Positions 1,453-57,036 of a DNA stretch of 64,000 nt are shown here, in pieces. Source of the DNA: an uncultured Alphaproteobacteria bacterium. Lineage in GTDB: Bacteria; Pseudomonadota; Alphaproteobacteria; Rhodobacterales; Rhodobacteraceae. Under the pieces are notes generated by a model. The model made no database searches, was not told the origin of the DNA, and worked only from the letters and a program-made list of their open reading frames with translations. The translations under genes and the position numbers were made by a program. How positions within the stretch are numbered: position 1 is the stretch's first letter; each line of letters begins with the position of its first letter. The stretch lies in assembly GCA_929200255.1 (NCBI GenBank), contig CAKMYZ010000006.1:93829-157828 (forward strand), read 5' to 3'.

Positions 1453-1551
1453 CAAAGTGGAAAATAATCGCTAAGGGTGTTTGCATCGAAACGGGTTAAG
1501 CGCGTAATGTTCTACCAATTCGAGCAGCAAAATGATTGGGCAAGGGGCAAA

Positions 1552-2460
1552 ATGGACTGGGACAAGCTAAGAATCTTCCACGCAGTGGCCGATGCTGGCT
1601 CGCTCACACATGCGGGTGATGCGCTGCATCTGTCGCAATCCGCTGTCAGCCGCCAGATCAGAGCGCTCGAAGAATCACTGAACACCACCCTTTTTCACCG
1701 CCATGCGCGCGGCTTGATTCTGACCGAACAGGGTGAATTGTTGTTCGACGCGACCCGCAGCATGAACAAACGGCTCGAGGCCGCCGCCGCACGTATCCGC
1801 GACAGCGAAGAAGAAGTCTTTGGGGAATTGCGGATCACCACGACAATAGGGTTCGGCACGCTCTGGCTCGCGCCGCGTCTGCCCAAGCTTTATGAACAAT
1901 ACCCCGACCTCAAGATCGACCTGATGCTGGAAGAGCGCGTACTTGATCTGCCCATGCGCGAGGCTGACGTCGCAATCCGCATGAAGGAACCCAGCCAGGC
2001 GGACCTGATCCGCAAGCGGCTGATGTCCGTGCGTATGCGTCTTTATGCGACGAGTGCCTATCTCAAACGGCATGGCACGCCAGAAAGAGTGGAAGAACTC
2101 GGCAAGCATCGGTTGCTCTGCCAAAGCCTGAATTCCATTCAGGTGGCCGCAGGTGCAACGCTTGTCCAGCACCTGATGACCTATGACATTCCCAGTGTCT
2201 TCACGGTCAACAACTACTTTGGCGTCCTCCAGGGGGTGCTGAATAACATCGGGATCGGCGTGCTGCCTGACTATGTGACTGAGGATTTCCCCGATCTGGT
2301 GCGCGTGCTGCCTGATCTGGAAAGCGCTGAAGTGCCCGTGTTTCTGGCCTATCCAGAAGAACTACGGCAATCCAAACGGATCGGCGCCTTCCGCGATTTC
2401 GTCCAAGAGGAGATATTCGCCCACCGTCGCAAAATCCGCGAGGCGCAGGCAGCATCGTGA
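1552..2460 (+). CDS. LysR family transcriptional regulator
   Basis: A 302-residue LysR-type regulator. The N-terminal winged helix-turn-helix covers roughly residues 4-62 (AVADAGSLTHAGDALHLSQS), followed by a linker helix and a substrate-binding co-inducer domain from about residue 90. The ORF track begins at 1477, but ATG at 1552 gives the standard LysR length and has AAGGGG just upstream. The divergent neighbour is the fused 2-oxoacid:ferredoxin oxidoreductase, with an inverted repeat between them, so the usual LysR pattern of controlling a divergent target and itself is plausible. The ligand is unknown. Confidence 0.85.
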   Translation: MDWDKLRIFHAVADAGSLTHAGDALHLSQSAVSRQIRALEESLNTTLFHRHARGLILTEQGELLFDATRSMNKRLEAAAARIRDSEEEVFGELRITTTIGFGTLWLAPRLPKLYEQYPDLKIDLMLEERVLDLPMREADVAIRMKEPSQADLIRKRLMSVRMRLYATSAYLKRHGTPERVEELGKHRLLCQSLNSIQVAAGATLVQHLMTYDIPSVFTVNNYFGVLQGVLNNIGIGVLPDYVTEDFPDLVRVLPDLESAEVPVFLAYPEELRQSKRIGAFRDFVQEEIFAHRRKIREAQAAS

Positions 2461-2515
2461 CGCAGCCATGCGCTCAGAGCATAGCGGCTTTGCGAAGAAT
2501 GATCTCCTATTCTTC

Positions 2516-2550: not shown

Positions 2551-2628
2551 CGAAGGCGATGATGCTTCGCGCTCATCCTCTTCACCTCCCTGTTGGACTT
2601 GCCGGGCCCTGCGCCCGGCATTTTTTTT
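2551..2628 (+). ncRNA. Candidate trans-acting small RNA, suhB/MmgR-like
   Basis: No gene covers 2461-2791, yet the region is highly structured. A 5-bp hairpin (CGAAG/CTTCG) begins at 2551. AAGTC just upstream could pair with GACTT at 2596-2600. An unpaired pyrimidine-rich segment with CCTCCCT follows at 2585-2591, and then a 7-bp GC hairpin with eight T residues. Alphaproteobacterial small RNAs of the suhB/MmgR group are about this size, carry a CCUCCCU loop complementary to ribosome binding sites, and end in a GC-rich terminator. The match to that family is from memory and has not been searched. The alternative is a processed 3' end of the LysR mRNA. Confidence 0.5.
2601..2628 (+). terminator. 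Rho-independent terminator of the small RNA
   Basis: GCCGGGC (2601-2607) pairs perfectly with GCCCGGC (2613-2619) across a 5-nt loop and is followed, after one A, by eight T residues. It is one of the clearest intrinsic terminators in the window. Confidence 0.85.
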
Positions 2629-5049: not shown

Positions 5050-5286
5050 ATGCCGATCACTGCCCATGAGATTGAAACCCTACTGCGCGACAGCTTCCCC
5101 GACGCACAAATCAACGTGCAGGGCGATGACGGCGCGCATTTTGCAGCAGAGGTGATCGACGAAAGCTTTCGCGGCAAAAACCGGGTGCAGCAACAGCGGG
5201 CCGTCTATGCAGCCCTCAAAGGTAAGATGGATGGGAACAACGGCGAACTGCACGCGTTGGCGCTGACGACCAAGGTGCCTGACTAA
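5050..5286 (+). CDS. BolA family protein
   Basis: A 78-residue BolA/YrbA-type protein with the compact alpha-beta fold. The conserved segment SFRGKNRVQQQRAVYAAL carries the helix that ends in the usual C-terminal THALALTTK-like stretch (here LHALALTTK). BolA proteins form [2Fe-2S]-bridged heterodimers with monothiol glutaredoxins of the CGFS type. That agrees with grxD two genes downstream in the same direction, so the two products probably act together in iron-sulfur trafficking or iron sensing. The start at 5050 gives the normal family N-terminus (MPITAHEIETLLRDSFP). Confidence 0.92.
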   Translation: MPITAHEIETLLRDSFPDAQINVQGDDGAHFAAEVIDESFRGKNRVQQQRAVYAALKGKMDGNNGELHALALTTKVPD

Positions 5287-56207: not shown

Positions 56208-56284
56208 TGGCGCGGTTGACGGGGCTCGAACCCGCGACCCCCGGCGTGACAGGCCGGTACTCTAACCAGCTGAGCTACAACCGC
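56208..56284 (-). tRNA. tRNA-Asp (GTC), copy 1
   Basis: A 77-nt cloverleaf. The acceptor stem GCGGTTG/CAACCGC, the anticodon loop CTGTCAC (anticodon GTC), the T arm GGGTTCGAGCCCC and an encoded CCA are all visible. It is identical to copy 2. Confidence 0.95.
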
Positions 56285-56580: not shown

Positions 56581-56657
56581 TGGCGCGGTTGACGGGGCTC
56601 GAACCCGCGACCCCCGGCGTGACAGGCCGGTACTCTAACCAGCTGAGCTACAACCGC
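56581..56657 (-). tRNA. tRNA-Asp (GTC), copy 2
   Basis: Identical over all 77 nt to copy 1, including the GTC anticodon and CCA end, but with different flanks. The 296-bp spacer between copies carries its own terminator, so each copy appears to be a separate transcription unit. Confidence 0.95.
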
Positions 56658-56960: not shown

Positions 56961-57036
56961 TGGTGGGTGATGAGAGGCTCGAACTCCCGACATCTTCCGT
57001 GTAAAGGAAGCGCTCTACCAACTGAGCTAATCACCC
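56961..57036 (-). tRNA. tRNA-Val (TAC)
   Basis: A 76-nt cloverleaf with acceptor GGGTGAT/ATCACCC, D arm GCTCAGTTGGTAGAGC, anticodon loop TTTACAC (anticodon TAC) and encoded CCA. Confidence 0.95.

Follow-up and report, generated by a model that had tools for sequence, protein, structure and literature searches.

The intergenic stretch between lysR and purL raises two questions: whether the 78-nt element within it is a small RNA gene, and, if so, to which family the RNA belongs and what controls its expression. The initial annotation, covering the window (the whole stretch of 64,000 nucleotides that was analysed), had proposed a non-coding, trans-acting small RNA (sRNA) of the suhB/MmgR type with its own promoter, an exposed CCUCCCU and an intrinsic terminator. 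The analysis supports such an sRNA gene, while the suhB/MmgR assignment gave way to another one; the LysR-type box upstream of the RNA and its tie to the LysR gene had been missed.

The small RNA gene and its conservation

All of the described parts are present within positions 2551-2628 of the plus strand. The element begins with a 5' hairpin (2552-2583, outer stem GAAG/CTTC), followed by the predicted single-stranded seed CCUCCCUGUUGGACUU (2585-2600), which is complementary to ribosome binding sites and opens with CCTCCCT (2585-2591). It ends with an intrinsic terminator (2600-2628) composed of a stem at 2600-2620 (8 pairs, 7 of them GC, with a loop of 5) and eight T residues (2621-2628). 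The predicted fold of the 78 nt has a free energy of -30.8 kcal/mol (z = -3.84), which none of the shuffles equalled. The promoter-like pair, TTGAAC (2516-2521) and TATCTG (2539-2544) separated by 17 bp, is likewise there as described; it constitutes the core of an RpoD/RpoH-type promoter, CTTGAAC (-35) and CTATCTG (-10), at 2515-2544 on the plus strand, which was not called in a sigma-70 consensus scan of the window. The predicted 5' end at 2551 corresponds to the mapped start of SorY from R. sphaeroides to about one base.

Thirty LysR orthologs of the family were collected by protein alone, with no selection on the RNA. In 29 of these loci, lysR is followed by an intergenic stretch with CCUCCCUGUUGGAC(U/A) and a terminator, the sole exception being genome G034, where the gene context is different. 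The seed is near invariant both in this lysR-anchored set and in alignment A2. Presence of the sRNA in loci picked without reference to it, together with the E-value of the Rfam match described below (4e-9), places the element beyond chance: positions 2551-2628 are a genuine small regulatory RNA gene.

The upstream DNA was compared among 160 distinct loci. Most of these had been retrieved through the SorY model or a pattern of the seed, which biases the set for the seed but not for the region upstream. CTTG is located at one distance in 146 of them, followed by CCTAWWT at a fixed spacing and by (T/C)GAAG at the start site. The 5' hairpin covaries, lack of covariance in relatives having been named beforehand as an observation against the gene. 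Its outer stem forms on average 5.90 pairs with its own arm, compared to 5.19 +- 0.10 with arms permuted among loci (0 of 500 permutations did as well; kinship uncorrected); pairs were counted from anchored arms, because the 3' arm is wrongly placed in A2, a MAFFT alignment.

The RNA as the SorY ortholog

At curated cut-offs, Rfam labels the element SorX (RF02784; 2575-2626, 49.8 bits versus a cut-off of 46.6). A permissive scan additionally matches the full SorY model (RF02651) to 2553-2628 with 36.3 bits, below its cut-off of 111. Among 298 genomes of the family, 282 match the SorY model at E <= 0.001 and a single one passes the cut-off. The SorX label arises because the SorY cut-off was tuned to the R. 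sphaeroides sequence and is too narrow for the ortholog group, whose members are consequently mislabelled as SorX.

In genome G051, the SorY and SorX models match at 1,632,645 and 2,598,225, in agreement with the 5' ends mapped in R. sphaeroides 2.4.1 (1,632,642 and 2,598,224, respectively; PMC6238624). The genome is therefore that of R. sphaeroides 2.4.1, as confirmed by its TakP, which matches PDB 2hzk over all 365 residues. At its SorY locus (L154), the flanking LysR and PurL are 79% and 84% identical to those of the window, and the order and strands of the genes are alike. Given this shared lysR-SorY-purL synteny, the window RNA is the syntenic ortholog of SorY, and SorX is its paralog. 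Three SorX-like places are found in the genome of the present organism (on contig C19 with 71.1 bits, in the window, and on contig C7 with 34.9 bits). Identity with SorX was rejected despite the Rfam label: the window RNA is placed after lysR and not in the ompR-1 3' UTR, and the C19 element scores better.

Further Sor-type elements were observed around these loci. At the true SorX locus (L001, C19:42521-45592; around 1498-1620, minus strand), a second CCTCCCTGTCGGAT module is located just 5' of SorX, and tandem pairs of SorX-like matches in other genomes of the family (e.g., G211, G286, and G022) recall abcR1/abcR2. An uncultured Rhodobacteraceae locus (L093) contains a tandem SorY between lysR and purL, with core copies at 5175 and 5336, 161 nt apart on the same strand. 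The weakest Sor-type RNA of the present genome (L003, C7:64722-67792; 1501-1571, minus strand) lies near a putative HerA-type ATPase gene, with a TCTCCCTGTCGGACTTGG segment about 100 nt away on the opposite strand. Elsewhere in the window, two tRNA genes on the minus strand (56211-56284 and 56584-56657, 373 bp apart) have equal Rfam scores and alignments, and their anticodon, judged by eye, is GUC (Asp); a third tRNA is located at 56964-57036.

SorY, known as a stress RNA of R. sphaeroides, is transcribed there from its own start site with no processing involved, and takP is its published target (PMC6238624); it binds Hfq, and its expression depends on RpoHI/RpoHII (PMC5036791). The ribosome binding site of R. 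sphaeroides takP, GUCCACAAGGGAGG, pairs with the seed CCUCCCUGUUGGAC across a two-base loop at -22.8 kcal/mol, a duplex energy that ignores accessibility and was equalled by 1 of 1000 shuffled seeds. This pairing offers a reason for the conservation of UGUUGGAC along with CCUCCC. In the present genome, the nearest TakP-like gene, which is 34% identical to TakP and of uncertain orthology, pairs at -17.7, as compared to -16.4 for the best of 19 background genes of the window. A genome-wide search for full complements of the seed (14-mer target sites) gave no excess over the reversed control.

By analogy with R. sphaeroides, the start site, the RpoHI/RpoHII dependence, the Hfq binding, and the takP-type targeting probably apply to the present organism. 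Transcription would start from the RNA's own promoter at about 2551 and end at the terminator at 2628, and the 5' hairpin would leave CCUCCCUGUUGGACUU single-stranded. Together with Hfq, the seed would then base-pair with ribosome binding sites in a selected group of mRNAs, chiefly those for the periplasmic binding proteins of carboxylate transporters (in R. sphaeroides, takP), and this pairing would lower uptake under oxidative and other stress.

The adjacent LysR regulator and its predicted box

The gene that precedes the RNA (1552-2460, plus strand) encodes a LysR-type regulator to which NCBIfam gives no specific name; its open reading frame extends from 1477, and the orthologs suggest ATG at 1552 as the start. 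The protein is an ortholog of LsrB/VtlR. In a comparison of S. meliloti LsrB with the present genome, the window LysR is the best match (239.8 bits, next 129.9; reciprocal best), and in R. sphaeroides the best match is the LysR beside SorY (250.9 bits, next 119.3). Across much of the class, genomes encode one clear ortholog with 45-52% identity, the next paralogs being near 33%. A trxB gene directly 5' is the gene order characteristic of LsrB/VtlR loci (PMC7486931; PMC11975290), exemplified by asnC-trxB-lsrB-abcR1-abcR2-arsR in the S. meliloti record CP090106. It is present directly upstream of the LysR ortholog in most (nearly all) class loci outside the family and in 0 of 82 Rhodobacteraceae loci. 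The recognition-helix region for DNA binding is nearly identical in the window LysR and LsrB. The redox cysteines of Agrobacterium (rhizobial) LsrB, C144 and C273, correspond to V and A in the window LysR, which suggests that the signal it senses probably differs from that of rhizobial LsrB, while the DNA-binding helix and the box are kept.

Just after the lysR stop codon lies a predicted LysR-type (LsrB/VtlR) box, ATGC-N7-GCAT (2468-2482, plus strand), which holds T-N11-A. It overlaps GCAT-N3-GG-N3-T (2479-2491, plus strand), which departs by a single T to G change from the VtlR box published for Brucella and Agrobacterium, GCAT-N3-TG-N3-T; in its extended form, GCAT-N3-KG-N3-T, the motif is wider than that box by one base. 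ATGC-N7-GCAT occurs in 110 of the 160 loci versus 0.22 expected from shuffles, with the reservation that the loci are related by descent and the trials not independent, and its spacer is 7, with hardly any other length. Of 102 loci, 96 place the box 31-32 bp before the CTTG of the -35 element, and in 70 of 85 the GCAT begins between -71 and -73 (-72 in the window). This constant spacing between box and sRNA promoter suggests that the neighbouring LysR controls SorY.

A similar arrangement is known from rhizobia, where LsrB activates abcR1 and where removal of the motif at -61 to -49 lowers the S. meliloti abcR1 promoter more than 22-fold (PMC8844928). This gene is preceded by ATGC-N7-GCATGGCTGTCAT, with GCAT at -61, i.e., 11 bp (about one helical turn) nearer the start than in the window. 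As LsrB does with abcR1, the adjacent LysR probably occupies the box (2468-2491) and would activate the SorY promoter, a prediction based on the box and its spacing; LysR control of SorY-type RNAs, anywhere in Rhodobacterales, is something that we infer by analogy. Overall, the SorY ortholog of the window most likely acts as a stress-induced, Hfq-dependent sRNA, which blocks the ribosome binding sites on takP-type mRNAs for solute transporters and is activated by the adjacent LysR.

An unlikely alternative retains the RNA as SorY and assigns the box to lysR autoregulation or to another function, SorY being driven by RpoHI/RpoHII alone. In its favour are the RpoHI/RpoHII dependence reported for R. 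sphaeroides SorY (PMC5036791), the fit of the window -35 and -10 elements to an RpoH-type promoter, and the precedent of S. meliloti abcR2, which depends on RpoH1 and not on LsrB (PMC8844928). However, the box is located 3' of lysR and keeps its near-constant distance from the -35 element of the sRNA, a spacing that autoregulation of lysR does not need. Much less probable is the origin of the RNA by processing of the lysR mRNA, in the way that its paralog SorX is made from the ompR-1 3' UTR (PMC8625941, PMC6238624). No terminator separates lysR from the RNA, and read-through would stop at the same terminator; against this, the promoter is conserved at a fixed distance from the 5' end of the RNA, and that of R. 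sphaeroides SorY is a mapped transcription start, unprocessed (PMC6238624). Control of SorY by the adjacent LysR is the preferred reading.

Class-wide LysR-sRNA pairing and known systems

In 28 LysR loci of other alphaproteobacterial families, the gene is mostly followed by ACGUCUCCCAGACGUGAAGCCUCCCUGUU..ACUU and a terminator, and the LysR box is present in 15 of them versus 0.17 expected. In the 20 loci scanned at curated cut-offs, no Rfam family passed, and in the loci scanned more permissively SorX and suhB were the closest models, with 26-35 bits for suhB. Such scores of the class-wide relatives, along with the shared CCUCCC-type motif and terminator, speak for the suhB/MmgR kinship supposed at the outset (the model number given there, RF00519, is correct). 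Yet the suhB model reaches 19 bits versus a cut-off of 41 in the window, where SorX and SorY match better, and membership in this family is highly improbable. Hardly more credible, despite the location between the two genes, is a mere lysR transcription terminator or purL leader with no sRNA, as the seed is conserved beyond any terminator's need, the terminator comes before purL, and a distance of at most 400 nt to the RNA is seen for purL in 47 of 118 loci versus 108 of 113 for lysR. Since it is often not adjacent, purL seems incidental to the sRNA, and purine control via purL was rejected on the same grounds.

A class-wide covariance model, built from 18 LysR-linked elements with none from Rhodobacterales, matches the window SorY with 34.4 bits (E 4e-8), as well as the other two Sor-like places of the genome and R. 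sphaeroides SorY. In a survey of 115 genomes, about one per family, the element was matched in 59, and 50 of these encode the LysR ortholog. It is located 96-533 nt 3' of LysR on the same strand in 40 of the 50 (22 of 32 when the training genomes are left out). At the named rhizobial abcR loci, which come from large replicons of a plasmid collection, the model did not find AbcR1/2 up to E = 10, a result that lends no support to a common descent of SorY and AbcR. Conversely, the AbcR model (ar15, RF02345) has no match in the window or anywhere in the present genome, nor in the class sample or the order of genome G337. AbcR was accordingly rejected as a sequence homolog, position, motif type, and regulator being what the two share. 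In G337 (L217), the gap after the LysR ortholog contains two candidate sRNAs: an ar14-like multi-hairpin element (2562-2680; 28.7 bits, below the cut-off) and, further on, an element of the class-wide type (2900-2966; 43 bits).

These patterns tip the balance slightly towards an ancestral alphaproteobacterial module, in which LsrB/VtlR would control an adjacent sRNA directed against ribosome binding sites. SorY would represent the module in Rhodobacterales and AbcR1 would do so in rhizobia (through descent or replacement in place), while the RNA that passes no Rfam cut-off in dozens of other families would be the most widespread form. LsrB was called unique to Rhizobiales by a 2025 paper, and SorY and AbcR1 are never named together in the literature searched. 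SorY is now placed beside an LsrB ortholog with a matching box at a fixed distance, and LysR-sRNA pairing is found in 40 alphaproteobacterial families, which brings scattered sRNA families into one framework. The predicted LsrB-type control of SorY and the class-wide pairing are new, the sRNA itself being the ortholog of a known one.

Among known systems, SorY of R. sphaeroides (formerly RSs1543) resembles the window RNA in its place between lysR and purL, strand, order of parts, seed, and kinds of promoter and terminator; the sequence of the 5' hairpin has diverged, and the score stays below the family cut-off. SorX (formerly RSs2461) has the seed CCUCCCUGUUGGA and the terminator in common with the window RNA, which exceeds its Rfam cut-off, but is processed from a 3' UTR, whereas the window RNA follows lysR. 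The suhB/MmgR RNAs share the CCUCCC-type motif, the terminator, and the occurrence in Alphaproteobacteria, and differ by the low model score. AbcR1/AbcR2 of Rhizobiaceae differ in sequence, with no match either way, in structure, and in having two tandem copies. Nevertheless, they lie directly 3' of lsrB/vtlR on the same strand, as the window RNA does after the ortholog, and the likeness would extend to the CUCCC-type motif against ribosome binding sites, Hfq, targets among transporter binding proteins, and the LsrB box and/or RpoH promoter.
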